64,000 bases of DNA, from positions 186,001 through 250,000 of the forward strand of contig NZ_JAGSHX010000006.1 of the NCBI RefSeq assembly GCF_018138715.1, read 5' to 3'. Each line of letters begins with the position of its first letter. The first letter of the stretch is position 1. This stretch comes from Streptomyces asiaticus (GTDB lineage Bacteria > Actinomycetota > Actinomycetes > Streptomycetales > Streptomycetaceae). The notes below the pieces were generated by a model that searched no databases, was not told the origin of the DNA, and saw only the letters and a program-made list of their open reading frames with translations. Shown piece by piece: positions 9,528 through 63,939 of the stretch. A program made the position numbers and the translations under genes.

Positions 9528-12500
9528 TCAGGACACACCAAGCTCGTTGTCAATAAACTCAAGGACCTGATCCGCGGAGGCGGACTCCAGCCTCTGGGCC
9601 GCGCTCATCTCATCCGTCGGCTGCCGTGGCACATGCGTGCTCGGAGGGACGATCGCGGTGGGGGTGGCGTCGGTGCCGTCGGAGGTCAGCCGTCGCACCA
9701 GGTGGTGGGCGATGCCCTCCGGGGTCGGATGTCTGAAGATCAGGGCCGCGGGCAGCCGCAGACCCGTGGCGGCCGCGAGGCGATCGCGCAGTTCGACGGC
9801 GGTCAGGGACTCGAAGCCCAGCTCCTTGAAGCTGGCGTCGGCGTGCACCGCCTCGGCATCGGTGTGCCCCAGCACGGTGGCGGCGTGGTCGCGCACCAGG
9901 CCGAGGAGGGTGCGGTAACGCTCCACGGCCGACAGCCGTGCCAGCCGGGCGGCCCAGTCGACGGACGACGCTCCAGCGGCGGCAGCGGCGGCGCGCCGCC
10001 GTACGCTTCCGCCACCGGCACTCTCGGTCGCCACCCGGCCGGTGTTCAGGGAGCGCAGCTGATCGGCGTCGGCGGGACGCAGCACCAGCGCATCGATCGT
10101 CAGCACCGGGGCGCCCACGGCATCCGCGACGACGACCCGCAGTTCACGCTCGCCCTCGGGCTCGGCGGTCCGCGGACGGGGGGTGAGTCGGACGCGTACG
10201 GCGGTGGCCTCGGCCGCCCACAGGGACACACCGCTGATGGCGAACGGCAGCCACATCCGGCCGTCGCCCTCCTCCGCCCGGGTCCGGTCCATCCGTTCCA
10301 TGCCGTCCATCAGCAGCGCCGGATGCAGCACCGCGTCCAGCAGGGCGGGGTGAATACCGAAGCCACCGGGCTCACCCGCGGCCTTGGGCAGCTCCACATC
10401 GGCCAGCAGATCCGCGCCGTCCCGCCACACCGCGCGCAGCCCCTGGAACGCGGCGCCGTAGCCGTATCCGGATGTGGCGATCCGTTCGTAGAACCCGTCG
10501 GTGTCCACCGGCCGCGCTCCCGGCGGGGGCCAGGTCCCGGGCAACTCCCCCGACCGGCTTTCCGGTACGGCGGGGCCGAGGACGCCCACGGCATGGCACA
10601 CCCAGTCGGTGTCGCCCCCCGTGCGCAGGCTGTCGTCGGGAAGGGAGTAGATCGCGATGTCGCGGCGTCCGTCGTCGGCGGGTGGACCCACCACCACCTG
10701 GACACATCGGCCGCCCGTCGCGGGCATCACCAGCGGCAGCCGCAGCGCGAGCTCCTCCACCGCACCGCAGCCGGCCTCGTCGGCCGCCCGCAGCGCCCAC
10801 TCCACCAGTGCGGCTCCTGGCACCAGGGCCACGCCCGCCACCACATGGTCGGCGAGCCAGCCATGCGTCTGCGGGGAGAGACGTCCGGTCAGCACATGGC
10901 CACTGCCGTCGGCGAGCCGCACCGCGGCGCCCAGCAGCGGGTGGTCCGCGGCGACCAGGCCGAGGGCGGCGGGGTCCCCGCCGGGCCCGCTGGGGGCGTC
11001 CAGCCAGTAGCGCCGGCGCTGGAAGGCGTACGTGGGCAGATCGACCGTACGGGGCGGGGGGTCGGCCGGGAAGGCGGCCGACCAGTCCACCTCGGCACCG
11101 GCGATGAACGCCTGCGCGACCGACTTCGTCAGCTGGGCCAGGTCCCCGTGGTCGCGCCGCAGGGTGGGCACCGCGGCAGCGCCGATCCCGGCGTGCTCGA
11201 AGCCCTCCCGCATCGCCATGGTGAGGACGGGATGGGTGCTGGCCTCGATGAACACCCGATGCCCTGCCGCCAGCAGCGCCTCGACGGCATCGGCGAACCG
11301 CACCCGCTCCCGCAGATTCCGCATCCAGTAGTCCGTGTCCAGCACGGAGCCATCGGCCCGGGCACCGGTCACGGTGGAGTAGAACACCACCCCGGAGGAT
11401 CCGGGCGCCTCGACCGGCTCAACTCCCCCGAGCAGCTTGGTGAGTTCAGCGGCGATCTCATCGACCTGGGGGCTGTGCGAGGCGTAGTCCACCTCGATCA
11501 GCCGCGCCCGCTCGCCCGCGTCCTGACACGCGGCCACCACAGTGGCCACCTGCTCCGGTGGCCCGGAGACGACGGTGGACTCGGGGCCGTTCACCACGGC
11601 CACCACGACCGCGGCGGCCCGGTCGCCGAGCCCGGACAGCAGATCCGTGGCCTGCTCCTGGCCCACGCCGAGGGAGGCCATGGCCCCGCCCCCGGCGAGC
11701 CGCCGCAGGGCCCGGCTGCGCAGCGCCACGACCTTCGCGCCGTCCTCCAGGGACAGCGCTCCCGCCACCACGGCCGCCGCGATCTCGCCCTGGCTGTGGC
11801 CCACCACGGCGGCGGGGCGCACACCGTACTCGGCCCATACGGCGGCCAGGGACACCATCGCCGCCCAGAGCACCGGCTGCACCACATCCACCCGGCTCAG
11901 CCCGGCGGCGCCTTCGGCTCCCCGCAGGACATCCGTGAGCGACCAGTCGACGTGCGGCGCGAGCGCTCGTTCGCACTCCGCCACCCGGGCGGCGAACACC
12001 GGTGAGGCGTCCAGCAGTCCGACGCCCATCCCGATCCACTGCGAGCCCTGCCCGGGGAACACCAGCACCGGGCCCGCGTCAACGGCCGCGCCGGAGCGGG
12101 TGGCGCCCGGGCCCACCACGCCCGGATGCGTCTCGTCGGCCGCCAACGCCGCGAGGGCGGCGGTGAGTTCGCCACGGTCCGCGCCGACCACCACCGCACG
12201 GTGGTCGAAGGCCGTCCGGGTGGTGATCAGCGACCAGCCCACGTCCCGGGGCGACGGTGTGTTGTCGGCGGCCGTGTGGGCGGCCAGCTCCCGGGCCTGT
12301 CCGCGCAGGGCCTCGGCGCTGCGGGCGCACAGCACCCAGGGCACCGGCCGGTCGTCCGCGTCCGGCAGCGCGCCGCTGGGGGCCGGTTCCGGCTCGGGGG
12401 CCTGCTCCACGATCAGATGCGCGTTGGTGCCGCTGATGCCGAAGGAGGACACGCCCGCGCGGCGAGGGCGTTCGTCGCGCGGCCAGTCCACCGGCTCGGT

Positions 12501-15500
12501 CAGCAGCCGCACCGCGCCGCCGTCCCAGTTGACGTGGGGGCTGGGCGCGTCGATGTGCAAGGTGGCGGGCAGCAGTCCGTGCCGCATGGCCATCACCATC
12601 TTGATGACGCCCGCCACGCCGGCCGCGGCCTGGGTGTGGCCGATGTTGGACTTCAGCGAGCCCAGCCACAGGGGCCGCTCTTCCGGCCGCTCCCGCCCGT
12701 ACGTGGCGAGCAGGGCCTGGGCCTCGATCGGGTCCCCCAGCGTGGTTCCGGTGCCATGGGCCTCGACGGCGTCCACGTCGGCCGGGGACAGCCGGGCGTC
12801 GGCGAGGGCCTGGCGGATCACCCGCTGCTGGGAGGGGCCGTTGGGCGCGGTCAGGCCGTTGGAGGCGCCGTCCTGGTTGACGGCCGAGCCCCGGATCACC
12901 GCGAGCACCCGGTGGCCGTTCCGCCGGGCCTCGGACAGCCGCTCCAGGAGCAGCAGGCCGACGCCCTCGCCCCATCCGGTGCCGTCGGCGGCGGCCGCGA
13001 ACGGCTTGCACCGCCCGTCGGGGGCCAGGCCGCGCTGGCGGGAGAAGCCGGTGAACATGCCGGGTGCGGCCATCACCGTCACCCCTCCGGCCAGGGCGAG
13101 CGCGCACTCGCCCTGCCGCAGCGCCCGCACCGCGAGATGGATCGCCACGAGCGAGGACGAACACGCCGTGTCCACCGACACCGCGGGCCCCTCCAGACCG
13201 AAGGTGAACGCCACCCGGCCGGACACCACACTGGGGGTGCCGCCGGTCAGCAGATGGCCGTCGAGCCCCTTGGGCGCCTCGTGCAGCCGGGGGCCGTAGT
13301 CCTGGGGCATCACTCCGACGAACACCCCGGTGGGGCTGGACTGGAGGGCGGTGGAGCGGATGCCCGCCCGTTCGAAGGTCTGCCACGCGGTTTCCAGCAG
13401 CAGCCGCTGCTGTGGGTCGGTGGCGAGCGCCTCCCGGGGGCTGATCCCGAAGAACTCCGCGTCGAACTCCGGTGCGTCGTAGAGGAAGCCGCCCTCGTGG
13501 GCGTAGCTGGTGCCGGGGCGGTCCTGGTCGGGGTCGAAGAGTCCGGCCAGGTCCCAGCCGCGGTCCCGGGGGAACTCCCCGATCGCGTCGACGCCCTCGG
13601 TCACCAGCCGCCACAGCACCTCGGGCGAGTCGACGCCGCCGGGGAAGCGGCAGCCCATGGCCACCACCGCGATCGGCTCGTCGGCGTCGCACGCCGCGGG
13701 AGTCGTCGGCGCGGGCGGGGTGGCGGCAGGGGTGATGTGGGCGCGCAGGTGGTCGGCGACGGCCAGGGGCGTGGGGTGGTCGAAGGTGAGCGTGGCGGTC
13801 AGGGGCAGCCCGGTGGCGGCGCCGAGCCGCTCGCTGAGTTCGGTCGCCGCGAGAGAGTCGAAGCCCAGCTCCTTGAAGGTGAGGCCGGGATCGATGGCAT
13901 CCGGCTCGGAGTGTCCGAGGACGAGGGCCACTTGGGTCCGTACGACCTCGAGCGGGTCCCGGCCCGGCGCCGTGTCGCGGGGCCCGGCCGTCTCTCCCAC
14001 GGGCGCCGCCTGGTCCGGGGCGGCCTCCGTCCCGGTGGTGTGAGTGCCCCGCGCGATGGGTTCGGGTGAGGTGGTGGGCCAGTAGCGGTCCCGCTGGAAG
14101 GCGTACGTCGGCAGGGAGACCCGCTGCCGGGGGTGCCCGGCGCAGGCCCGGTCCCAGGCCACTTCGGCGCCGCGGACATACGTCTGGGCCATGGCGGCGG
14201 CGAAGGTGCGTACCTCGGGCCGGTCGCGGCGCAGTGCCGCCACCGCGGCCGGGCGTGGCCGCCCGGGGGCCGGACCGGGCCGCCCGGGGGCCGGACCGGG
14301 CCGTGCGGGGGCCGGACCGGGGCGTGCGGCGAGGCATTCGCGGGTCATGGCGGTGAGCGGGGCGTCCGGTCCGAGTTCGAGGAAGGTGGTGACACCGGCG
14401 TCCAGGAGGGTGTGCACTCCGTCCATGAAGCGCACCGCGTGGCGGGCGTGCCGGGCCCAGTAGTCCGGTGTGGCGAGCTCCGAGGCGGTGGCGAGCCGTC
14501 CCGTCACATTGGAGACGATGGGAATGGCCGGTGCGGAGAAGGTCAGCCCGGAGGCGACGGCACGCAGTTCGTCGAGCATGGTGTCCATGTGCGGCGAGTG
14601 GAAGGCATGGCTGACCTTCAGCAGCCGGGCCTTGCGGCCGCGCTCGCGCCATGTGGCGGCGGTCGCGTGGACGGCGTCGTGGTCACCCGAAATCACCACG
14701 GACGAAGGCCCGTTGACGGCGGCGAGGTCCAGCCGGTCCTCCCACCCGGCGAGCAGTCCCGCGGCCTCGTCCGCGTCGGCCTGGAGCGCGGCCATGGCGC
14801 CCTTCGCCGTGATGGCCTGCATCAGCCGGCCGCGGGCGGCCACCAGGGTGCAGGCGTCGGGCAGGGTGAGCACACCGGCCACATGGGCCGCGGCGATCTC
14901 GCCGACCGAGTGGCCCATCAGATGGCCGGGGGTGAGCCCCCAGGATTCGGCCAGCCGGTAGAGCGCCACCTCGATGGCGAACAGCGCGGGCTGGGTGTAC
15001 GCGGTGCGGTCGAGCAACTCCGCTCGCGGGGACGGAGGTTCGGCGGACAGCACATCGCGCAACGGCTCCGGCAACTGCCCGTCCAGACAGTCGCACACCT
15101 CGTCCAGCGCCGCGGCGAAGACCGGATAGGCGGCGTGGAGCTCACGGCCCATGGCCGCTCGCTGGCTGCCCTGGCCGCTGAAGAGGACGGCGAGACCGCC
15201 GTCCGTGGCCCTGCCCCGCATCACTCCGGCGGTCTCCGTGCCGTTGGCCAGCGCGTCCAGTCCGCTCAGCAGCTCGTCGGCGCCCTTCCCGAGGATCACG
15301 GCGCGGTGGGCGAAGGCGGTCCGGGTGGTGGCCAGGGAGTGTCCGATGTCGGCCGGGGAGAGGCCGTCGTGGTCCGCCAGATGGTCCCGTAGCCGCTCGG
15401 CCTGGGCGCGCAGCGCCGCGGGGGTCTTCGCGGAGATCGGCCAGGCCACGACCGGGGGCGCGAGGGTGTCGGCGGGGGCGGGCGCGGATACGGGTGCGGG

Positions 15501-16913
15501 CGCGGGCGCGGGCGCTTCGCCGAGGACGAGATGGCAGTTGGTGCCGCCCATGCCGAAGGAGCTGACCCCGGCGAGCAGCGGCCGGTTCGGGCGGGGCCAC
15601 TCGCCGAGCCGGTCCTGGACCCGCAGCCCGAGTTCGGCCAGCGGGATCCGTGGGTTCGGAGTGGTGAAGTGGAGGCTGGCCGGGAGCAGTCGGTGGGTGA
15701 TGGCGAGGGCGGTCTTGAGCAGTCCCACGATGCCCGCGGCGCCCTCGAGGTGGCCCACGTTGGTCTTGGCGGAGCCGACGAGCAGCGGTGTGCCGTCGGT
15801 CCGTACGGTGCCGAGCGCGGCGCCGAGTGCCGCCGCCTCGACGGGGTCGCCGACGGGGGTTCCGGTGCCGTGCAGCTCGACGTACTGGACCGCGTCGGGT
15901 AAGACTCCGGCCCGCCGGTGGGCGGTGCGCACCACGTCCTCCTGGGCCGCCGGGCTGGGGGACGTCAGCCCGTCGGTGGCGCCGTCGTTGTTGACGGCGG
16001 TCGCGTGGATGACGCAGTACACCGGGTCGCCGTCGCGTACGGCCGCGGCGAGTGGCTTGAGGAGGACCGCCGCGCCGCCCTCGCCACGGACGAATCCGTT
16101 GGCACGGGCGTCGAAGGTGTGGCAGCGCCCGTCCGGGGAGAGCCCGCCGAACTGGGCGGCGGCGGCCGCCATGCTGTCCTCGGTGAGGATGAGGTTGACG
16201 CCTCCGGCCAGGGCCAGGGTGCACTCCTGGCGGCGCAGGCTCTCGCAGGCGGTGTGCACGGCCACCAGCGAGGAGGACTGTGCGGTGTCGACGGTGAGGC
16301 TGGGGCCGCGCAGACCGTAGCCGTAGGAGACCCGGTTGGCGATGATGCTGCGGTGGACACCGGTCATGGCGTGCCGGGTGGCCGCGGTGGCGTCCCGGCG
16401 CAGCAGTGCGGCGTACTCGTCCCAGATGGCGCCGACGAACACCCCGGTCGGGGTGTCCTTCAGCGTGCCGGGGCGGATTCCCGCGTCCTCGAACGCCTCC
16501 CAGGCGAGTTCGAGCATCAGCCGCTGCTGCGGGTCCATGGCCGTGGCCTCGCGGGGCGAGATGCCGAAGAAGGAGGCGTCGAAGGTGTCGACGCGGTCCA
16601 GGAAGCCGCCGTACCAGGTCGGGGCCGCCCGGCCGGAACCGTCGCTGACGGGACCCTCGGCGGCGGGACCGTCGGGGGCGGTGCCCTCGGTGACGGAGCC
16701 ATCCGTGGCAGAGCCATCCGTGGCAGAGCCATCCGTGGCGGAGGCGCCGGTCCGGCGGCGGTCGTCCGGCATGGTGGTGATGGCGTTCCCGCCCTGCCGC
16801 AGCAGCCGCCAGAAGGCCGACGGGCTGGGTGCGTGGGGCAGGCGGCAGGCCATCCCCACCACGGCGATGGGCTCCGGGTGCTGAGGTGTGCGAGTGGGCT
16901 CGGCGCTATCCAT
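9528..16913 (-). CDS. Type I modular PKS, loading module plus module 1 (KSQ-AT-ACP-KS-AT-DH-ACP)
   Basis: This 2461-residue starter protein begins at ATG 16913; the only upstream in-frame codons before a stop are non-starts. The first KS has Gln 212 in place of the active Cys (DTAQSSS), the hallmark of a decarboxylating KSQ. The loading AT has Ser 669 and HAFH near 768 (malonyl), so an acetyl starter is predicted. ACP1 Ser is near 1019. Module 1 has KS Cys near 1251, AT Ser near 1706 with YASH near 1809 (methylmalonyl), DH His near 2021 with HxxxGxxxxP and a matching Asp near 2191, and ACP2 Ser near 2366. No KR or ER lies between DH and ACP2. The tail is a docking segment ending FIDNELGVS. 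Two in-frame tandem repeats lie in the loading module. Confidence 0.97.
14260..14322 (-). repeat. 21-bp in-frame tandem repeat, three copies
   Basis: Three near-identical 21-base units sit at the C-terminal end of the loading AT. They encode a repeated Arg-Pro-Gly-Pro-Ala-Pro-Gly-like unit. The length is a multiple of three, so gain or loss of a unit keeps the frame. It looks like a slippage-prone linker. Confidence 0.85.
16696..16740 (-). repeat. 15-bp in-frame tandem repeat, three copies
   Basis: The plus-strand unit GAGCCATCCGTGGCA occurs three times in a row. It encodes Ala-Thr-Asp-Gly-Ser repeats in an acidic, Ser/Gly-rich insertion near residues 58-72 of the KSQ domain. The insertion sits between conserved KS motifs and probably forms a flexible surface loop. 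Confidence 0.9.
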
Positions 16914-18698: not shown

Positions 18699-19481
18699 AT
18701 GGGGCACATCGTGCGATATGAGATCATGGGACCTCTCCGCGTAGTGGAAGAGGAGAGGAAATTAACCATCAGGGCGCGGAAGATCGAGGTCCTGTTGACC
18801 GTCCTCCTCGTCCGCGCCGATCAAGTGGTCCCGATCGACCAGCTCATCACGGAGATCTGGGGAGAGGATCCGCCGCGCCGGGCGATCGCCGGGCTCCATG
18901 TGTATGTCTCCCAGATCCGTAAGTTCCTGCGCCGGCCCGGCCAGCACGAAAGCCCCGTTATCACCCGCCCGCCGGGATATGTTCTGCGGCTGGGCCACGA
19001 CCGCCTCGACTTCCACTGCTTCGAACGGCTGGTGTGCGAGGGCCGGGACCATCTGCGGGAGCGGCGTTACCAGCAGGCCACGGCGACTTTCGAAAGCGCA
19101 CTCGATCTGTGGCGCGATCCATTGCTGGACGACGTATGCCATGGACCGATCCTCGAAGGCTTTCAGACCTGGCTGAAGGAAGCGCGTCTGGAATGCATCG
19201 AAATGTTGACGGATTCCCGGCTCATGCTCGGCCGCCATCGCGAGCTGGTGAGCGATCTGTATCAGCTGACCACCGAGCATCCCCTGCGGGAGGCACTGCA
19301 CCGTCAGTTGATGCTGGCGCTCTACCGCTGTGGCCGCCGGGCGGACGCCTTGCATGTGTATCAAGCGGCGCGCAAGACGCTCAATGAAGAACTCGGGCTC
19401 GAGCCGTGCCGGGCCTTGCAGGACATGCAGCAGGCCATCCTCACCTCGGATGACCGACTGGAACTGCATGTTCCCGCTTGA
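18699..19481 (+). CDS. SARP-family pathway-specific transcriptional activator
   Basis: A 260-residue protein with the SARP layout: an N-terminal winged-helix OmpR-like DNA-binding domain (about residues 1-100, with the RYEIMGPLRV start and IWGEDPP motif) followed by a bacterial transcriptional activation (BTAD) domain to about residue 245. The short length, without NB-ARC or TPR extension, matches small activators of the ActII-ORF4 type. The ATG at 18699 is called, but the GTG at 18711 is a good alternative: it gives the usual VRYEIMGPL start and has GGGG upstream. It lies next to the PKS genes and the downstream small gene, so it most likely activates this cluster. Confidence 0.9.
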   Translation: MGHIVRYEIMGPLRVVEEERKLTIRARKIEVLLTVLLVRADQVVPIDQLITEIWGEDPPRRAIAGLHVYVSQIRKFLRRPGQHESPVITRPPGYVLRLGHDRLDFHCFERLVCEGRDHLRERRYQQATATFESALDLWRDPLLDDVCHGPILEGFQTWLKEARLECIEMLTDSRLMLGRHRELVSDLYQLTTEHPLREALHRQLMLALYRCGRRADALHVYQAARKTLNEELGLEPCRALQDMQQAILTSDDRLELHVPA

Positions 19482-19508
19482 GGAGGACCGCGTAAGGAGG
19501 TGGAGATA

Positions 19509-19739
19509 TTGAGCGAACACGTCAGTTATCTGTCCGAGGGCAGTCCGATCGAGGTCGTCCTCGAAGGCGGACCGGACGATCTGCCCCGGGCCTTCCGGGC
19601 CGGGCGGTCGACGCTCACCAGCAAGAAGCTCAAAATCCAGCACCGCGATGGATACGAGCACTTCGAACTCGTCAACGATTCCGCTGACATCACCACAGCG
19701 ATCTTTCGCTGGACCATGCGTACGAAAATCGCCGAGTAG
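19509..19739 (+). CDS. Small DUF5988-type protein downstream of the SARP
   Basis: A 76-residue protein. A TTG start at 19509 is chosen because AAGGAGG ends at 19500, giving an 8-base spacer; the in-frame GTG at 19500 would overlap that site. The sequence has a LEGGPDDLP motif, a basic centre, then HRDGYEHFE and a FRWTMRTKIAE end. This pattern matches my recollection of the DUF5988 family found near actinomycete secondary-metabolite regulators. It starts 27 bases after the SARP stop and is likely co-transcribed. Function is unknown, and no catalytic motif or membrane segment is visible. Confidence 0.7.
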   Translation: MSEHVSYLSEGSPIEVVLEGGPDDLPRAFRAGRSTLTSKKLKIQHRDGYEHFELVNDSADITTAIFRWTMRTKIAE

Positions 19740-19825
19740 CCTCCATGGCTCCGGAACCCCGGGATCGCCGACCGGTCACCGCCGGCCGGTGGTCCCGGGC
19801 CGGGGGCCGTGGCCAGGAGGTCCGT

Positions 19826-21778
19826 ATGCGTACTGCACGATGGCGCGGGGTCGTGATCGCCGCGCTCACGATGTCGACAGCCCTTGCCGCACTGCCCGCC
19901 GGGCCCGCGTCGGCCCGGACAGCCGCCGGACCCGCCACCAAGGTGGTGGACGGCCGCACCCAGCCGGTGTTCTCCTACGCGGACGCCGTGCGTGAGCATC
20001 TGATGGTCCAGACCCCGGTCGACAGCGACGGCGATGGCCACAAGGACCGGGTCGCGGTGGACATCATCCGGCCCAAGGAGACCCAGCGGGGTCTCCGGGT
20101 GCCGGTCATCATGTCGTCCAGTCCCTACAACGACACCGTGGGCCGTGGCTTCGAGTCGGAGCGGAAGAGCTACGACGCCCAGGGCAACCCGGTCAAGTTC
20201 CCTCTCTTCTACGACAATTACTTCGTACCGCGCGGCTACGCCGTGGTCGATGTCGATGTGACCGGCACCGGCAGATCCGACGGCTGTCTGACGGTCGGCG
20301 GCGCCGCCGATGTGGCCGCCGCCAAGGCCACGATCGACTGGCTGGGCGGCCGCGCCACGGCGTACGCGGCCGACGGCAGCGAGGTGAAGGCCTCCTGGTC
20401 CACCGGCAAGGTGGGCATGATCGGCCACTCGTACGAGGGCATGCTGGCCAACGCGGTGGCGGGCACCGGAGTGGAGGGGCTGGAGACCATCGTCCCGATC
20501 TCCGGAGTCAGCTCCTGGTACGAGTTCGCCCGCACCAACGGCGCCAAGCACTGGAACGGTTTCGCCTCGTATCTGACCACCGCGCTGGACACCGACCCGC
20601 CCCACAAGTGCCAGGCGGTGCGCGAGCGGTTGCAGGCCGGTGAGGACGACGCCACCGGCAACTACAACGCCCACTGGGACGAGCGCAATTACATCGCGCG
20701 GCCCGCGCCCGAGGTGGACAAGGTGCGCGCGAGCGTCCTCGCCGCGCATGACATCAACGACTACAACATCCGGATCAACCAGCTCGCGAACTGGTGGGAC
20801 GCGCTGGCCGAGCGCGGGGTGCCGCGCAAGCTGTGGCTTGGCCGCTACGGCCACACCGATCCGTTCGACTGGCCCGGTCGGCGCGCGCAGTGGGTCGACA
20901 CCGTGCACCGATGGTTCGACCACTGGCTGTACGGCATCCAGAACGGAGTCATGGACGAGCCCCGCGTCGATCTACAGACCGGTCCGGACACCTGGACGAC
21001 CCAGGCCGACTGGCCCGCGGGCACCTCCTCGGTCCCCCTGCACCCCCGGCCCGACGGCTCGCTGGCGCTGAGTCCCGCGAGCGGCACCGGGACCTTCACC
21101 GACACCAAGCTGAGCGAGGCGGATCTCACCGCCGACCCGTCGGCGAACCTCCCTGGCCGGCTGGCGTTCGTCACCCCGCCCCTGCGCACCGGGGTGCGGC
21201 TCTCCGGCACACCCACCGCCGATCTGCGGGTCACGCTCGACAAGCCGACATCGAACCTCACCGCGCTGCTCGTGGACTACGGCGAGGACGAACGGATCGA
21301 CTGGAACCGCAACGAACCCCAGAACCGGATCCACGACGGTCTGCGGGGGCTGGACGAGGAGTCCTGCCACGGGGAGAGCACCGTCCAGGACGACGCCTGC
21401 TACCAGCGGACCGCCAATGTGACGGCGCGCAAATCCTCCGAGGTGATCGCCCGGGGCTGGATGGACGCCCAGAACCGCCACTCGCTCACCACCCCCGAGC
21501 CGCTGGCCCCCGGCCGGTCCTACCGGATCACCTGGAAGACCCTGCCGGGCGACTACGAGCTCAAGCCGGGCCATCGGCTGGGGCTGGTCCTCGGCGGTAC
21601 CGACGCCGACTTCCTCTACTTCGAGGACGCGACCGGGACGAAGGTGACGGTGGACCTGGGTGACAGCCGGGTCAGCGTACCGGTGACCGCCGCCGGCAAT
21701 CTCCCCAACTCCCTTCGCCACAGGCGCGTTGATAAGGCCCGGACCGCCACCACCGGCGGTCCGGGCTCAGCCCCGTAG
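19826..21778 (+). CDS. Secreted S15-family X-Pro dipeptidyl-peptidase-like hydrolase
   Basis: A 650-residue alpha/beta hydrolase. The ATG at 19826 follows AGGAGG and gives a clear Sec signal peptide (basic start, hydrophobic core, Ala-rich cleavage site near residue 32). The nucleophile motif is GHSYEG, as in family S15, with acidic residues in the HDINDYN stretch and a His in RYGHTDPF as probable triad members. The C-terminal half is the jelly-roll domain of PepX/cocaine-esterase proteins. It should act outside the cell on proline-containing peptides or esters. The last ~15 codons run through a perfect hairpin (21737-21766), so the annotated C-terminus may be longer than the original gene. 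Confidence 0.9.
   Translation: MRTARWRGVVIAALTMSTALAALPAGPASARTAAGPATKVVDGRTQPVFSYADAVREHLMVQTPVDSDGDGHKDRVAVDIIRPKETQRGLRVPVIMSSSPYNDTVGRGFESERKSYDAQGNPVKFPLFYDNYFVPRGYAVVDVDVTGTGRSDGCLTVGGAADVAAAKATIDWLGGRATAYAADGSEVKASWSTGKVGMIGHSYEGMLANAVAGTGVEGLETIVPISGVSSWYEFARTNGAKHWNGFASYLTTALDTDPPHKCQAVRERLQAGEDDATGNYNAHWDERNYIARPAPEVDKVRASVLAAHDINDYNIRINQLANWWDALAERGVPRKLWLGRYGHTDPFDWPGRRAQWVDTVHRWFDHWLYGIQNGVMDEPRVDLQTGPDTWTTQADWPAGTSSVPLHPRPDGSLALSPASGTGTFTDTKLSEADLTADPSANLPGRLAFVTPPLRTGVRLSGTPTADLRVTLDKPTSNLTALLVDYGEDERIDWNRNEPQNRIHDGLRGLDEESCHGESTVQDDACYQRTANVTARKSSEVIARGWMDAQNRHSLTTPEPLAPGRSYRITWKTLPGDYELKPGHRLGLVLGGTDADFLYFEDATGTKVTVDLGDSRVSVPVTAAGNLPNSLRHRRVDKARTATTGGPGSAP
21737..21766. terminator. 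Hairpin between convergent genes
   Basis: The arms GCCCGGACCGCC and GGCGGTCCGGGC form a perfect 12-bp stem with a 6-base loop. It lies at the very end of the X-Pro peptidase ORF and 41 bases from the stop of the convergent methyltransferase, so it could end transcription from both sides. No U-tract follows, as is usual in Streptomyces. Confidence 0.75.
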
Positions 21779-42542: not shown

Positions 42543-43298
42543 GTGACCGCAAACCCCACCGGCACAAGCCTGTGGATCAGGCAGTTCCACCCCGCGCCGA
42601 CCGCCGCGACGCGACTCGTCTGCCTGCCCCACGCCGGCGGGTCCGCCTCCTATTACTTCCCCGTCTCCAAGGCCCTCTCGCCCACGGTCGATGTGCTCGC
42701 GGTGCAGTACCCGGGGCGCCAGGACCGGCGCAATGAGAAGTGCATAGACAACATCGCCGAACTGGCCGACGCGCTGGTGCCCGAATTGCTGCCCTATACG
42801 GACAAGCCGGTGGCGCTTTTCGGCCACAGCATGGGCGCCACGCTGAGCTTCGAGGTCGCCCTGCGTCTGGAGCAGAAGGGCGTGCAGCCGGTGGCGCTGT
42901 TCGCCTCGGGGCGGCGCGCCCCGTCCTGCCACCGCGACGAGTCCGTCCACCTCCGCGACGACGACGGGCTGATCGCCGAGATGAAGGCCCTGAGCGGCAC
43001 CGACACCTCACTCCTTGGCGACGACGAGATCCTCCGGATGGTGCTGCCCGCGATCCGCAGCGACTACAAGGCGGCCGAGACCTACCGCTACACCCCCGGC
43101 CCGCGGCTGGCGACGCCCATCCACGCACACGTGGGGGACGACGACCCCAAGGCCACCGTCGAGGAGGCCCGCGCCTGGGGCGAGCACACCACCGGTGGCT
43201 TCGACCTCCAGGTCTACTCCGGCGGCCACTTCTACCTCAACGACCAGGCGCCGCGGGTGATCGCGTCGATCCGGGACGTGCTGACCTCGAAGTCCTGA
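42543..43298 (+). CDS. Type II thioesterase (alpha/beta hydrolase, GrsT/RifR-like)
   Basis: A 251-residue editing thioesterase from GTG 42543 with GAAAGGA upstream. It has the conserved CLPHAGGSASYYFP oxyanion segment (28-40), VQYPGRQDRR, nucleophile Ser 96 in FGHSMGA, a HVGDDDPKA segment around the catalytic Asp, and the catalytic His in SGGHFYLN near 229. Family members remove stalled or wrongly primed acyl groups from PKS/NRPS carrier proteins. It lies about 25 kb from the modular PKS genes and 12 kb from the iterative PKS, so which system it serves is open. Confidence 0.93.
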   Translation: MTANPTGTSLWIRQFHPAPTAATRLVCLPHAGGSASYYFPVSKALSPTVDVLAVQYPGRQDRRNEKCIDNIAELADALVPELLPYTDKPVALFGHSMGATLSFEVALRLEQKGVQPVALFASGRRAPSCHRDESVHLRDDDGLIAEMKALSGTDTSLLGDDEILRMVLPAIRSDYKAAETYRYTPGPRLATPIHAHVGDDDPKATVEEARAWGEHTTGGFDLQVYSGGHFYLNDQAPRVIASIRDVLTSKS

Positions 43299-55626: not shown

Positions 55627-58600
55627 TCAGCCCGGGGTGCCCAGCCGCTCCTCCGACCGGTCGGCCGGGCCGGGCTCCAGCTGCTGGGCGAGCCCGGCGG
55701 CCAGGGCCTCCACGGTCGGATGCCGCCAGACGAAGTTGCCCGCGAGCTTGATGTTCAGCCCCGTCTCCAGCCGCACCCGCAGCTCCATGGCGAGCAGCGA
55801 GTCGAAGCCCAGCGACTTGAGCGGGGTCTGCGGATCGAGGGTGGCGCTGCTGAGCCGCAGCACGGCTCGGATGTGATCGGTCAGATACGACTCCAGCGCG
55901 GTGCGGCGGGCCGGACCGGCGGGAAGGGCGGCCAGCCGGGCGCGGATGTCGTCGGTGCTCTCCCGGGGGGCCGCCGGGGAGTCGTCGCCGGGGAGCAGCG
56001 GGGCGAACAGGGAGGACCGGCGGCCGGTGGCGGGGATCCAGGTGGCGGGTTCGCCGGGGATCACCCCGGTCTGCACCCGCCGATGAGCCAGCAGGGCGCC
56101 CAGCGCGCGCAGCCCCTCGTCCGTGGGGATCGTCTGGTAGCCGCGGTCGGCGAAGCCGGTGGCCACTCCGGTCTCGCCCCACGGGCCCCAGTTGACCGCG
56201 AGGGTGGGCAGCCCGCGCGCCGAGCGCCAGGCGGCGAAGCCGTCCAGCCAGGCGTTGGCGGCCGCGTAGGCGCCCTGTCCGGCGTTGCCCAGCAGGGAGG
56301 CCATGGAGGAATACACCACGAACCAGTCGAGCCGGTGCCCCTCGGTGGCCTGGTGCAGCCGCCACGCCCCGGTGGCCTTCGGCGCCCATACGCGGCGCAG
56401 CTGGTCCTCGCGGATGTTGGCCACGGCCGCGTCGTCGAGAACCATCGCGGAGTGGACGACGCCGTGCGGGGACTCCCCCTCGTCGGCGGTGGCGGCGGCC
56501 ACCAGCCGCTCGGCCGTGTCCGGGCGGGCGATGTCGCCGGTGACGACGGTGATCCTGGTGCCTGCGGCGGAGAGCTCGGCGAGCGTCCGCGCGGCGGCGC
56601 CGACCGGTGCGGTCCGTCCGTTGAGCACCAGGTGGCCCGCGCCCTGGCGGGCCAGCCAGCAGGCGGTGGCGAGCCCGAGACCGCGCAGACCGCCGGTGAC
56701 GATGTATGTGCCGCCGTCCCGCACCGTGAGCGGTCCGTCGGGCAGCACCGCGTCGACCTGGCCCTCCTGCGGGATGGTCAGCACCAGTTTGCCGATGTGG
56801 CGGGCGCCGGCCATCTGCCGGAACGCGTCGGTGACCTCGGCCAGCGGATAGGTGGTGCAGCGCAGTGGCTTGAGACGGCCCTCGCCGATCGCGGTGAGCA
56901 CCTCGCGCAGCATCGCCGCGTACTCCCGCGGGCGGTCCAGCTGGAGCTCCCTGAGGTCCACGGTGGAGAAGGTGATGTTGTGGCGCAGCGGGGAGAGTCC
57001 GAGCGGGGCGTCGGAGAGGATGTCGCGGACGCCGAGTTCGACAAAGCGGCCGAAGGGGCGCAGACACTCGAGACCGGCCCGGATGGCGGCCCCGGAGAGG
57101 GAGTTGAGCACCACGTCGACGCCCTCGCCCCCGGTGGCCTCCATGACCTCGTCGCGGAAGTCCAGCGACCGGGAGTCCATCACCCGGGCGATGCCCATCC
57201 CCCGCAGGAAGCGCCGCTTCTCCGCGCTGCCCGCCGTGGCCAGCACCTCGGCGCCCAGCAGCCGGGCCACCGCGATGGCGGCCAGGCCGGTGCCGCCGGT
57301 GGCCGAGTGGATCAGCACCCGCTCCCCCGCGCTCACCCGGCCGATGTGGCGCAGCGCGTACCAGGCGGTGAGGAACGCGATCGGCAGCCCGGCGGCGGTG
57401 TGCGGGTCGAGGCCCTCGGGGAGGGGCACGGTGTGGTCGGCGAGGACGACGGTGAAGGAGCCGAAGGCGCCGCCGTGCACATCGGCGGCCACCACCCGGT
57501 CACCGGCGCGGAGGTGGTCGACACCGGGTCCCACCGCGCTCACCTCGCCCGCGCATTCGAAGCCGAGCCGGTAGCGGATGTCCTCGTCGCCGGGGAGCAG
57601 CCCCATGGCGGTGAGGACGTCACGGAAGTTCAGGCCCGCGGCGAGCACCCGCAGTTCCACCTCACCGGGTCCGGGCGGGCGGCGGGGGTTGGTGGTGAGC
57701 TCCAGGCTGCCGAGGTCGCCGAGGCGTCCGGCGCGCAGCCGGAAGCCGTCGGTGCCGCAGCGCACGGTGCGGGCGGCGGCGGTGGTGCGCTCGGTGTCGG
57801 TGAGCGGCGCGTGGTCCAGTTCGGCGGTGTAGCGGGCTCCGTCGCGCAGTGCGATCTCGTCCTCGGGGCCGTCGGCGAGGAGTTCGGCGGCCAGGGTGTC
57901 CGCGAGCTGGTCCGGGGCGGCCGGGTCGGTGTCCACGAAGGTGGCCCGCAGCTCGGGGTGTTCCAGGGCGAGCACCCGCAGGAGTCCGCGGAGCGCGCTC
58001 TGTCCGGGGTCGGCCAGGTCGCCGGGGGTCACCGTGCGGGCGCCCGAGGTGGCGGCGTAGAGGCGGGGCGGTTCGGGGAAGCGGGCGGTGAGTGCCTGGG
58101 CGGCGGCGAGCAGCCGGCGGATGCGGCGCAGCCCGTCCTCCGCGCCGCCCTCGGCGGGGTGCGGGCCGCAGACGAACACCACGGCGCGCGGCCGTTCCCC
58201 GGGGCGGGTGAGCCGGTTGGTGAGGGCGTCGCGGAACGCGTCGAGCCCCTGGTCGGCCAGGGGCACGTCCCACACCCGGGCGGTGGCTCCGGCGGTGCGC
58301 AGGGCGGCGGCCACCGGGCGGGCGGTGCCGGCGGCCTCCCCGACGACCAGCCACCGCCCCGGGGGCCGGGTGGCCGGGGGCCGGGCGGCGCGCCGCCAGC
58401 CGACCTCGAGGAACCACTGGTCGGCCTCGGCCGCACGCTCCGCGGCCCGGTGGACGACCCGCAGCCCGTCGACGGCCAGCACCGGCCGGCCGGCCGCGTC
58501 GAGCAGGCGGATGTGGCCGACGGTGGCCCCGGGGGTGGTCTCGGCGAGCCGGGCGTGGCAGTACACGGCGGTCCCGGGGTCGCCGAGGACGCGTACGCAT

Positions 58601-61600
58601 CGCATCCGCGCGGGCAGCATCAGCCGCCGGTCGCCCTCGTCGAGCAGCCCGGCGATGAGCAGCTGGGCGCACAGGTCGACCAGGACGGGGTGGACACGCA
58701 GCCCGTGTCCGGGCTCGCGGGCGGCCTCGGGGACCCGCACCCGGGCCCAGAAGCTGTTGCCGTGGCGGGAGGCGGACACCTCGCTGATGCCCTGGAACGC
58801 CGGGCCGTGCGCCACGCCCCGGGCCCGCAGATTGGCGTACAGCGCTTCGGCCTCGATGGGCGCGGGATGGCGCAGGGCGAGGGTACGGACGGAGGCGGCG
58901 CGGGAGCGCGGGGGCACGGCGAGTCTGCGGAGCACCGCGGTGGCCTGCCGCACCCAGGCGCCGTCCTCGTCGCGTCCGAAGATCTCGCATTCGGCGCGGT
59001 CGGTGGCGGCCATGGTCACCGTGGTGGACAGGTCGGTGTGGTCGGCGAGCCGCAGCAGTTCACGGAAGCGCAGATCGGTGACCTCGACCTCCTCGGGCCC
59101 GGCGCCGAACACCTCGCAGGCGGCGGTGAGCGCGAGGGCGTAGGAGGCCGCGCCGGGCAGGACCGGGGCGCCGTGCACCCGGTGGTCGTCGAGCCAGGGC
59201 AGGGCCGCGGTGCCGGTGCGGGCGCGCCAGGTGTGGCGGACGGGTTCGCCGGGCACTTCGAGGTGCGCGCCGGGCAGCGTACCGGCCGAGGCCGCGTCGG
59301 AGGCCGCGGGGAGCGGGGTGTCGGCCCAGTGGCGGGTGCGGTCGAAGGTGATGGGCGGTACGTCGGCGAGTGCGCCGTCCGCGTACAGCACGGACCAGTC
59401 GACGGGGACGCCCGCGCAGTGCAGCGCGGCCAGCTGGGTCCGGAAGGTGGTCGGCTCGTCCTCCTCGCGGCGGAGTGTGGGCAGGACGACGGGGTCCTCC
59501 ACCAGACCGGCGAGACCGGCCAGGACGGGGTGGGTGATGACCGGGTGGGGGGAGATCTCGACGTACACCAGGTGGCGGTCGGCCGCGGCGGCGGCGACGG
59601 CCGCGGAGAACCGGACGGGGTGGCGCAGATTGGCACACCAGTAGTCGGCGTCGAAGGCGGGCCGGGTGTGGGGATCGTCCAGGACGGTGGTGTAGAAGGG
59701 CACGTCCGGGCGGCGGGGTTCGAGGTCGGCGAGGGCGGTGCGCAGATCGGCCAGGAGCGGGTCCACCTGGGGCGAGTGCGAGGCGACGTCCACGGCGACC
59801 AGCGCGGCGGGGACGGAGCGGGCCTGCCAGCCGGCGACGAGCCGTTCGATGTGTGCGGTGTCCCCGGCCACCACGGTGGAGCCGGGGGCGGCCATGACGG
59901 CCACGGTGACGGCCTCGGCGGCGCCGCCGCTGTCGAGTTCTGCCTGCACCTCGTCGGCGCCGAGGCCGACCGTGGCCATGGCGCCGTTTCCGGCGACGCG
60001 GGTGAGCAGCGCGGAGCGGCGGCAGATCACCTTGGCCCCGTCGGCGAGGGAGAGCGCCCCGGCCACCACGGCGGCGGCGACCTCGCCCATGGAGTGGCCG
60101 ATGACCCCGGCGGGCTCCACCCCGTGGGCGCGCCAGGTGGCGGCGAGCGCGGTCTGGAGCGCGAACAGCACGGGCTGCACCCGGCCGCAGCCGGTCACCG
60201 GCGCACCGCAGCGGACGATGTCGAGCACCGAGAATCCGGACTCGGCGGCGATGAGGGCGTCGGCCTCGGCGAGCGCCTCGGCGAAGGCCGGTTCGGTCTC
60301 CAGCAGCCGCCGCCCCATGCCGGGCCACTGGGAGCCCTGTCCGGAGAACACCCAGATCGGCCGGCGGGAGACCGCGGCGCCCACGGCGCCGCTCACCACG
60401 GCGGGGTGGGCCTGCCCGTCGGCGAACGCCCTCAAGGAGCCCACGAGTTCGGCGCGCGAGGCGGTGGTGACGCCGAGCCGTCCGCGGCCGGCGCCGCGGC
60501 GCAGCGCCAGGGTGTGGGCGATGTCGCGCAGCGGGGTGTCCGCGCCGTCGCCCTCCAGCCAGTCCGCCATCCGGCGGGCGGCGCCGGGCAGCACGGCCGG
60601 GGAGCCCGCGGGGACGAGGAACACCCGCGGAACGGCGCGGGTGGCGGGCCGTGGCGGTGCGGGGCGAGGGGCGGGTGCGGGCGGCTGTTCCAGCACCACA
60701 TGGGCGTTGGTCCCGGAGAAGCCGAAGGAGGACACGGCGGCCAGCCGGGGGCCGGTCCGCACCGGCCAGAGGGTGAGCTCGCGGGGGATGAAGAAGCGCG
60801 TTCCCTCGGCGGCGATGGCGGGATTCCACCGGGTGAAGTGCAGATTGGGCGGGATCTGTCCACGGCCCAGGCACAGCACCGCCTTGATCAGCCCGGTGAC
60901 ACCGGCGGCGGGCTCCAGATGGCCCAGGTTGGTCTTGACCGAGGCCAGGGCGCAGCGGTCGCGGCCGGTGCCGTAGACCTGGGCGAGGCTGGTGAATTCG
61001 ACCGGGTCACCGACGGGGGTGCCGGTGCCGTGGGCCTCGACCATGCCGACGTCGGCGGGGTCCACCCCGGCGCGGCCGAGTGCCTCCTCGTACAGGGCGT
61101 GCTGGGCGGCGGCCGAGGGCGCGGCGAGGCCGTCGGAGTGGCCGTCCTGGTTGACGGCCGAGCCGCGCAGTACGGCCAGGATCCGGTCCCCGTCGCGCAG
61201 GGCGTCGGTGAGGCGTTTGAGGACGACGATGCCGCAGCCCTCGCCGCGGACGAAGCCGTCGGCGGCGGCGTCGAAGGTGTGGCAGTGGCCGGTGTGCGAG
61301 AGCATGCCCATCTGGTCGAACGAGCGGGTGGTCCGCGGCTCGAACATCAGCGTCACCCCACCGGCCAGGGCCAGTTCGCACTCCCCGGTGCGCAGCGCCT
61401 GGGCGGCCAGGTGGATGGCGACCAGGGAGGAGGAGCACGCGGTGTCCAGCGCCACCGACGGGCCGTGGAGGCCCAGGAGGTAGGAGATCCGGCCGGTGGC
61501 GACGCAGTGCCCGTTGGTCAGGACGGAGCCCTCGACCTCCCGTTCCCGGGGGCGTCGGTCGAGCCGGTTCAGGTAGTCGTTGTAGCTGATCCCGGCGAAG

Positions 61601-61989
61601 ACGCCGGTGGCGGTGGAGCCGAGCCGGTCGGGTGGCATTCCGGCGTGTTCCAGGGCCTCCCAGGCCACTTCGAGCAGCAGCCGGTGCTGGGGGTCGAGGA
61701 CATCGGCCTCGCGTCCGGAGACGCCGAAGAAGTCGGCGTCGAAGCCGGACACATCGCGCAGATAACCGCCGCGTACGGGCGGTGCGGACGCGGGCCGGGC
61801 GGTCGTGGCGGGGTCGGCCGCCCAGAGCGCGGCGCGTTCGGCGGGCGGTTCGCCGACGGCGTCGCGTCCGTCGGCCAGCAGCCGCCACAGGGCGGCGGGC
61901 GAGTCGGTGTCACCGGGGAGCCGGCAGCCCATGCCGACGATGGCGATGTGGCCGGGGGAGCGGCCGGGGGCAGGAGTGTGCTGACGCAT
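55627..61989 (-). CDS. Mycocerosic acid synthase-like iterative PKS (KS-AT-DH-ER-KR-ACP)
   Basis: A 2120-residue single-module synthase. Domains: KS with active Cys 185 (DTACSSS), AT with Ser 633 (GHSMGE) and VASH at 735-738, DH with His 936 (HxxxGxxxxP) and a DLCAQ Asp near 1104, ER with ATGGTG near 1557, KR with VTGGLRGLG near 1764 and LDD (B-type), and ACP Ser near 2063. No docking domains or thioesterase. Length, domain order and the AT text [12 protein letters not shown] closely follow mycobacterial MAS, which adds methylmalonyl units iteratively to make methyl-branched acids. Methylmalonyl use is inferred from that similarity. It is followed upstream in the same operon by a ketosynthase-like gene. 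Confidence 0.93.
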
Positions 61990-62071: not shown

Positions 62072-63418
62072 TCAGGTGGCGTCCGGGCCGCCCAGCAGCA
62101 TCGCGTGCTTCACACCACCGATCTGGTAGTTGAAGCTGAGCGCGTGGTCGAAGTCGAGGGGACGGGTGCGGGTGCCGGGGACGGGGTCGAAGGGGAGCCC
62201 GTCGGCGGGTTGTTCGCAGTTGGCGGTGGGGCACACCTCGCCGTACTCCATCATCATCAGGGTCAGGGCGAGGTCGAGGCAGCCTGAGGCCGATCCGAGG
62301 TGGCCGAAACACCCTTCCTGAGAGGACATCAGCACCGTGGAGGCGGGGCCGTAGAGCTCGCGGACGGCGTTGGCCTCCAGGGCGGTGACGACCGGGTCGC
62401 CGTCGCTCGCGCCGTTGATGTACGGCAACTGCTCGATCCCCCAACGGTCGCCCGTGCACAGGCGGACGGCCCTGACCAGTTGGGCGCCGGAGTCGTCGGC
62501 GGCGAGCGGGTTGGCCAGGCCGTCGCGGGTCAGGGCGGTGGCGAGCACCTGGCCGTAGATGTGGGCACCCCGCCGCCCGGCGTGTTCCCGACTCTCCAGG
62601 ATCACGGTGGCGGATCCCTCGCCGTGGTTGATGCAGTCCGCACGCCGGTCGTAGGGACGCATCAGGGAGTCGAAGGAGGGCAGCAGATCGGGCATTCCGA
62701 CGGCGTCCGTCGCGTCGTGGGCGTGCTGGGCGCCGCGCAGCAGCCGCTGGCTCTTCTGGATGAGGCCGACGTTGAAGACGTCGACGCCGGTCACCAGCGC
62801 GAGATCGGTCTCGTCGGCCGCGATGAGCCGACGGGCGTTGCCGATCTGCACGGCGGCGGACGCGCAGCCGCAGGACACGGTGAAGCAGGGACCGACGGTC
62901 CGGGCCAGGGCTCCCTGGACGAGGGCGACATCGGAGGGGGAAACGGCCTGTTCGGTCGCGACGAGCATCTCCACGGCGTCGAAGGCGGTGGCGGAGTCGG
63001 GGTCGGCGCCGAGCAGGGAGACATAGCTGTCGACATTGGCGTCCACGCCGCCTCGGCCGACGAGCACGGCCGCCTCGCCCAGTTCACCGGCGTCCACGTC
63101 CAGTTCCGCGTCGGCACACGCCTCGACGAAGGAGACCAGGCCGTAGCGGTGGGCGTTGGTGTAGTGGCGGGAGAAGAATTCGGGGATGTCGGGGAGGCGT
63201 TCGGCGAACTGCTCGGCGCTGAGGTGCACCGAGCCGTAGTGGATACCGTGCCGGCCGAGGACGGTACGGCCGTGGGAGGCGATGTCCCACACCTGGGCCG
63301 CGGTGAAGACGGGTTCGGCGCCGCCCGGGAGGCAGAAACCCAGGCCGGTGACGACGGTGTCCCGTGGGTTTCCGGGGCCCCCGGGGGCCGGCCGGGGTGG
63401 GTGCCGGCGCGGGCTCAC
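62072..63418 (-). CDS. Stand-alone ketosynthase-like protein with degenerate active site
   Basis: A 448-residue FabF-type thiolase-fold protein. The GTG at 63418 is chosen because domain similarity begins about 20 residues later; a longer in-frame ATG at 63547 adds only unrelated sequence. The nucleophile Cys 185 (VSCGCASAA) and second His 373 (GHLGSASG) are kept. The first catalytic His (NAHGTSTP in FabF) is replaced by Ala 337 in INGASDGDP, the Lys before the second His is Glu 368, and the GFGGTN loop is altered. Normal condensation is unlikely. It precedes the iterative PKS by 82 bases and is probably co-transcribed, so a priming, length-control or carrier role is inferred. Confidence 0.88.
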   Translation of the reverse strand: MSPRRHPPRPAPGGPGNPRDTVVTGLGFCLPGGAEPVFTAAQVWDIASHGRTVLGRHGIHYGSVHLSAEQFAERLPDIPEFFSRHYTNAHRYGLVSFVEACADAELDVDAGELGEAAVLVGRGGVDANVDSYVSLLGADPDSATAFDAVEMLVATEQAVSPSDVALVQGALARTVGPCFTVSCGCASAAVQIGNARRLIAADETDLALVTGVDVFNVGLIQKSQRLLRGAQHAHDATDAVGMPDLLPSFDSLMRPYDRRADCINHGEGSATVILESREHAGRRGAHIYGQVLATALTRDGLANPLAADDSGAQLVRAVRLCTGDRWGIEQLPYINGASDGDPVVTALEANAVRELYGPASTVLMSSQEGCFGHLGSASGCLDLALTLMMMEYGEVCPTANCEQPADGLPFDPVPGTRTRPLDFDHALSFNYQIGGVKHAMLLGGPDAT

Positions 63419-63447: not shown

Positions 63448-63939
63448 GACGGTGGTCCCTTTCGCTCACACCGGAGTACGGGGCCGCCGGTACGGCGAGT
63501 CGCCGAATGCACGGTGGGACCGCCGGTGTTCCGGAATCGGTTTTCATGGTGAATTCGACGCGTGCGGCGCGGCGTTGGACGTACTCGTGGCCTTTCCCCG
63601 TTGGATGGCGAGTCGTCTCCGTCGGGAGAGCGGCTCATCGTCCGGAAAGGAGAGGTGGAATAGTTGACGCTACGCCCGGGAGGACAGGGCCGGTAGGTGG
63701 TGTCGTATCACCGCGGTGGATTCGGCCGTTCCGGCGCACCGCCCTTGTACCCCCGGAGCCCATACCGCGCGACCCCGGAGAAAAGGGGGCTCGTGCCCTG
63801 GTTCACGCCCCCTCTTGTGGAATCTTTCTGAAAGAGCGTAGAGAAAAAGACGCCTCAGGCACTCACTGAGTATGGGGCGGTTTTGAGTGCAGGGAAGAGG
63901 CCCCTTCGCGCATGGGGCGAAAGACGCAAAGGACGATAG
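63448..63939. promoter_or_regulatory. Divergent intergenic region, KS-PKS operon / Lrp regulator
   Basis: This 492-base region has no convincing gene and an AT-richer segment near the regulator (about 63815-63900). CTCAG-N7-CTGAG at 63854-63870 is a small inverted repeat suitable for a dimeric regulator. AAAGGA at 63928-63933 is the regulator's ribosome-binding site. The leftward promoter of the ketosynthase/PKS operon should also be here. Confidence 0.5.

Follow-up and report, generated by a model that had tools for sequence, protein, structure and literature searches.

The window analysed here, a 64,000-nucleotide stretch of Streptomyces asiaticus DNA (contig NZ_JAGSHX010000006.1, positions 186,001 to 250,000), encodes a ketosynthase (KS)-like protein beside a type I polyketide synthase (PKS). 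The protein retains the active-site Cys and one catalytic His, lacks the first catalytic His and the catalytic Lys, falls within a clade of NonJ-like KSs and is paired with a PKS that has no thioesterase domain of its own. It is suggested, with a probability of about 0.5, that the protein is a non-condensing ketosynthase-fold acyltransferase dedicated to the adjacent PKS and transferring its chain to an alcohol or an amine; it would probably hand on the fatty product of the PKS, most likely by ester formation. The gene and its key residues are as follows.

62072..63418, minus strand: KS-like gene of the NonJ-like clade, 448 residues, start codon GTG at 63418, stop at 62072
62864..62866, minus strand: codon of Cys185, the presumed acyl-accepting nucleophile, kept in 257/257 family rows
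62414..62416, minus strand: codon of Asn335, a His in most PKS-linked relatives
62408..62410, minus strand: codon of Ala337, aligned with the first catalytic His of condensing KSs (phmmer and family alignments)
62315..62317, minus strand: codon of Glu368, at the place of the catalytic Lys (phmmer and family alignments)
62300..62302, minus strand: codon of His373, the second catalytic His, retained (phmmer and family alignments)
62108..62125, minus strand: QIGGVK, the counterpart of the GFGGTN gate loop (alignment with FabF and relatives)

The translation and a phmmer comparison with FabF confirmed the residues named in the original prediction, which had described Cys 185 and His 373 as kept, Ala 337 and Glu 368 as replacing the first His and the Lys, and the GFGGTN loop as changed. 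Against FabF structures the motif pairs YINGASDGD/YVNAHGTST, SSQEGCFGH/SSTKSMTGH and QIGGVK/GFGGTN aligned without gaps, and a hand count on this alignment gave the same number of residues from Tyr333 to Glu348 in both proteins, so that Ala337 corresponds to the first His without any insertion or deletion. The only domains matched at E 0.001 or better were PF00109 and PF02801 (ketoacyl-synt and Ketoacyl-synt_C), and ACP_syn_III was unmatched; the fold is FabF-like. Judged as a condensing FabF/KAS II enzyme, the protein has Cys185 and His373 and lacks the first His and the Lys. Ketosynthases require the first His and the Lys for decarboxylative condensation and, as both are absent, the KS-like protein should not decarboxylate an extender unit; an acyl group can still be bound by the invariant Cys185, and His373 remains available as a base. 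Glu368 lies close to His373 in the linear sequence, which raises the question of a Cys-His-acid triad at the level of sequence. The codon-position GC (guanine plus cytosine) content of the gene is 0.73/0.50/0.90; an in-frame ATG at 63547 falls within a DUF5988 remnant described below, and the recorded start of close relatives is the equivalent of 63418.

Several simpler accounts of this pattern were rejected. The protein is neither a KSQ decarboxylase, since Cys185 is retained rather than replaced by Gln, nor a chain-length factor, since the active-site Cys is present, and the distinction originally drawn from both classes is thereby borne out. Chance or a frame artefact is ruled out by the occurrence of the pattern in 257/257 family rows and by a ratio of nonsynonymous to synonymous substitution (dN/dS) of 0.21-0.39, and the Asn at 335 rules out that the window protein has its first His at that shifted position. 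For contrast, a motif search of the KSs in the PKSs of the window found three that have all of Cys, HGTGT, Lys and His, as well as a KSQ-type domain with DTAQSS and a retained HGTGT.

Of 7992 candidates scored in a protein search with the KS-like protein, 273 reached E 0.001 or better, and the named relatives among the best 120 of these were mostly from Streptomyces and Kitasatospora. Relatives at E 1e-90 were found in 32/295 Streptomyces genomes (the source genome included), at 23 places with at least 63% identity and at 10 with 45-52%; when the Frankia-type relative P0151 was used as query of a phylum sample, the sole match at E 1e-90 was in the window's own genome (1/396). Residues were compared over 283 KS rows, which are redundant because they combine the protein search, the loci and alignment copies, and 257 of which make up the family. 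Cys185 and His373 occur in all 257 of these redundant rows and His337 in none, while residue 368 is Glu in 250 and Asp in 7, and residue 335 is His in 181, Asn in 75 (50 NonJ-like and 25 from the window's sub-branch) and Arg in 1. In the NonK-like group (ten rows) the residues are Cys, Asn335, Tyr or Phe at 337, Glu and His; the 14 canonical rows have His337 and Lys368, and two further KS-like rows outside all groups have no Cys in the Cys column. The pattern is not unprecedented, being shared by the NonJ-like clade and by the NonK-like second KS of clusters read as nonactin-type. It is conceivable that the protein still elongates a chain by another route, through Asn335, Glu368 and His373. 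However, this is highly improbable for two reasons: first, the first His and the Lys are absent in 257/257 rows; second, the partner PKS has a full KS motif set of its own.

The original prediction had named a first His conserved at a shifted position as evidence against its view. Most PKS-linked relatives do read PYVHGGSDG, with a His two residues upstream, at 335, and the window protein has Asn there. The history of this residue was followed on a tree of 77 KS rows, rooted by choice on six canonical rows and built with a quick search that left some forks open. The NonJ-like clade, a branch of 67 rows that unites the window protein with the KSs of the clusters read as nonactin-type, stands apart from the canonical KSs with a Shimodaira-Hasegawa-like approximate likelihood ratio (SH-aLRT) of 99. 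The NonJ-like rows carry Asn335, and FabF likewise has Asn two residues before its His, while the PKS-linked rows carry His335 and the window's Asn335 sub-branch is nested inside them. Support was 99 for a set of 12 rows comprising the sub-branch and its Asp368 relatives and 95 for the sub-branch itself, and residue 335 changed at least 3 times on the tree. Grouping the 30 His carriers without the window's sub-branch cost 61 log units (approximately unbiased (AU) test, p 0.005, 74 rows), in a test for which the group was named after the first tree had been seen, three long rows were left out and residue 335 was included in all trees. Apparently, then, the canonical His was already missing from the clade ancestor; a new His arose at 335 in the PKS-linked branch and disappeared again in the window's sub-branch. 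A sister branch (L038, L039 and L057) has Cys337 and Asp368 instead of Ala or Gly and Glu, and DUF5988 was not found in its loci.

The second line of evidence is the pairing with the PKS encoded next to the KS-like gene.

55627..61989, minus strand: partner PKS, 2120 residues, KS-AT-DH-ER-KR-ACP, KS motifs intact (domain search and motif alignment)

A domain search found no thioesterase domain in this PKS, in which the KS comes first, from about residue 15, without a loading domain ahead of it. It scored 1890 bits against the NCBIfam model Pks2_ls1_myc, below the cut-off of 2400. Conservation of the pair was assessed in loci found by a pattern scan of genome contigs seeded by the family (the best 80 of 81 stretches, giving 74 distinct loci), with genes called in-house by codon-position GC; PKS linkage was counted within these loci and the window's own, and L037 and L084, which have no called KS, stand outside the counts. 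The original prediction had proposed a survey of homologues for the same residues and the same PKS neighbour: the residues recur throughout the family, with Glu or Asp at 368, and in the PKS-linked branch the KS lies at most two genes from a fully reducing type I PKS in 62/63 called copies, the window included. The sole exception (L011) is a locus that stops at a contig edge. In the NonJ-like copies, a type I PKS was found within two genes in 0/10. Pairwise identities of KS and PKS correlate across 54 loci (Mantel r 0.74, 0/999 permutations as high, run without an unlinked gene as control), as would be expected of genes inherited together. Relatives of the KS also occur on 22 plasmid records, and the two such stretches that were inspected both contain a three-gene run of DUF5988, KS and type I PKS. 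On both of these (L090, L091) proteins with IPT/TIG domains are annotated near the run, and a protein cluster that seems to be of this type has members in 27/75 loci.

Alternatively, the KS-like protein might be a structural partner of the PKS, acting like a chain-length factor and having no acyltransferase activity. Ketosynthase folds are usually dimers and the fold matches include entries for KS/chain-length-factor heterodimers, but this role is very unlikely: it does not demand the Cys185 and His373 that are found in 257/257 rows, and the PKS's own KS has its motifs, with Cys in 57/57 aligned copies of more than 1900 residues, Lys and His in 57/57 and HGTGT in 56/57 (one has HGPGT). The ACP motif GFDS is kept in 55/57 of the same PKS copies.

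The third line of evidence comes from the nearest relatives with a reported function. At nine loci (L070-L074, L076, L077, L079 and L080) a relative at about 50-52% identity, with residues C/N/G/E/H, adjoins a second KS with residues C/N/Y/E/H. Genes sampled from L073 and L080 encode enoyl-CoA hydratases, SDR reductases and an ABC transporter, and L080 has a CocE/NonD-family hydrolase (637.7 bits). These loci are read as nonactin-type clusters, and which KS of the pair would be NonJ is inferred; an adjacent NonJ-like and NonK-like pair is also present in 3/4 further stretches (L122-L124), the fourth (L125) having two NonJ-like copies. Three papers describe NonJ and NonK as KSs that form C-O bonds (PMC10006239; PMC10817512; PMC9582728), and one of them suggests homologues for dimer formation in S. 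globisporus and describes the nonactin system as having no acyl carrier protein (PMC10817512). The window protein shares with the NonJ-type KS its clade, about 51% identity, the pattern of Cys, no first His, Glu and His, and Asn335. It differs in its surroundings: the NonJ-type KS belongs to a multi-KS cluster and has a second KS next to it, whereas the window gene is flanked by the PKS, which it precedes, and by a gene for an AsnC-type regulator, with no NonK-type second KS adjacent. By sequence and residues the protein is thus within the NonJ-like clade and, as the second KS is missing, outside the NonJ/NonK system.

The role first proposed for the protein was priming or transfer. A transfer role fits, the Cys is invariant in the family rows and the PKS neighbour is conserved, and since the kin are read as C-O formers and the partner PKS has no thioesterase domain, release of the chain by transfer to an alcohol or an amine is considered most likely and is favoured over priming. 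In priming, Cys185 would take up a starter acyl group and pass it to the neighbouring PKS by trans-acylation, and the invariance of this residue, the conserved pairing and a window PKS without a loading domain would all suit such a role. Nevertheless, it is judged unlikely: the nearest kind with a function reported, in the papers cited above, forms C-O bonds, and no starter-activating gene retained with the pair was seen in the gene-order table, in which gene clusters are partly identified. MAS-like PKSs, moreover, are thought to load starters through their own KS.

For the suggested acyltransferase, the single-module PKS, presumably iterative, would build a reduced and perhaps methyl-branched acyl chain on its ACP, from which the chain would move to Cys185. 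His373, possibly with the help of Glu368, would then activate an acceptor hydroxyl (or amine), and attack of the activated acceptor on the thioester would give an ester (or amide) and release the chain. Several points weigh against this assignment. The PKS-linked branch has its own change, to His335, so the chemistry may have shifted, and the window gene has no NonK-like neighbour. The nonactin label, in turn, was given on cluster content. A separate thioesterase gene at 42543-43298 could release the chain, no acceptor-making gene retained with the KS/PKS pair was seen in the same gene-order table, and within the window's sub-branch the KS is under looser selection.

This last point raises the possibility that the family are acyltransferases and that the function is being lost in the window's sub-branch, in which His335 has apparently been lost and DUF5988 has decayed.

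63500..63600 (approximate), minus strand: decayed DUF5988 remnant in broken frames, 37 residues, E 3.0, containing a stop; weak alone

The DNA upstream of the window KS is 93% identical to that of L018, where the DUF5988 remnant has E 7.6e-6, and in the 60 loci where a PKS adjoins the KS, the small DUF5988 gene before the KS is intact in 39 and partial in 6, while 15 have none. Median dN/dS was taken over KS pairs at dS 0.15-0.5, which share loci and of which two of the four classes hold 1 and 2 pairs. It was 0.36 for the KS in the 30 pairs with Asn and no DUF5988 (PKS 0.36), as against 0.17 in the 52 pairs with His and DUF5988 (PKS 0.27). Erosion is nonetheless rather improbable: the KS remains under purifying selection, as strong as that on the PKS (ratio 1.03), with dN/dS of 0.21-0.39 for the window gene against nine relatives by a simple counting script, and Cys185, Glu368 and His373 are retained in all 11 proteins of the sub-branch. 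Loss of the His does not by itself amount to decay, since the single Asn pair with DUF5988 is tightly constrained (KS 0.13, PKS 0.22). The two pairs with His and no DUF5988 gave medians of 0.30 for the KS and 0.36 for the PKS, and the loosened selection on the KS seems to track DUF5988 rather than His335; one His pair with DUF5988 (L028-L031), however, is loose too (0.28 for both genes).

DUF5988 is not specific to the pair: 52 matches were found in 46/101 Streptomyces genomes, and the KS was present in 1/30 DUF5988 loci fetched with 1.5 kb flanks, at least 6 of the 52 matches adjoining a KS place by coordinates (that fetched locus included). Its fold model is all-beta (predicted local distance difference test score 85.4) and gave no match in the Protein Data Bank at E 0.001 or better. 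The searches made of the open-licence literature found no report of DUF5988, of the DUF5988, KS and PKS gene set, or of any reducing type I PKS with a dedicated NonJ-like KS. Tentatively, these three genes could form a compact and apparently undescribed pathway type of Streptomyces and kin, partly plasmid-borne, in which a Cys-His-Glu centre would release an ester or amide, DUF5988 would be a helper or even the acceptor, and His335, having arisen once and disappeared again in the window's sub-branch, would adjust the choice of acceptor or the type of reaction. To our knowledge, few ketosynthase-fold enzymes form C-O or C-N bonds. The many natural examples that pair such an enzyme with one type I PKS, and in which His335 seems to have come and gone, may show how a condensing enzyme becomes a transferase and how the product leaves a reducing PKS that has no thioesterase domain.

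The partner PKS resembles the MAS/Pks2-type PKSs of mycobacteria, the chains of which are moved by PapA-type acyltransferases, and the KS-like protein may fill the place of such an acyltransferase here. Comparable losses are described in other reports. CerJ has been shown to make an ester, and the same is proposed for Pau29; both are KAS III-like, with Cys- or Ser-His-Asp active sites and with Val (CerJ) or Asn (Pau29) at the position of the first His (PMC4425429). Like the window protein they are ketosynthase homologues without the first His, but they are of the KAS III lineage and the window protein is FabF-like. The non-elongating KS0 domains of algal PKSs have a changed first His, as does the window protein, and transfer or release is expected of them (PMC4661987); they are, however, domains within PKSs, and the stand-alone form and the Lys-to-Glu change of the window protein fall outside their description. 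The KS-like protein also scored 86 bits, against a cut-off of 325, with the NCBIfam model AmcF, named as an acyltransferase subunit, and AmcF was dropped as a model because the source describes AmcF-AmcG as performing C2 elongation and cyclisation (PMC10698177).

Elsewhere in the window, the KSQ-type domain (DTAQSS, HGTGT kept) belongs to a PKS at 9528-16913 on the minus strand; such domains occur in decarboxylating loading modules. A DUF5988 gene, the only match in the source genome, lies at 19500-19739 on the plus strand, between genes for a SARP-type regulator (18699-19481) and an X-Pro peptidase-like protein (19745-21778). Beside the KS-like gene, positions 8941-19408 of L009 correspond to the window from 63940 to past its right end and encode the AsnC-type regulator, a dimethylargininase-like hydrolase, a class III aminotransferase, a fused glutamine amidotransferase/chorismate-binding synthase, an AMP-ligase and an FAD monooxygenase, and several of these genes are likewise neighbours of the KS in close relatives.
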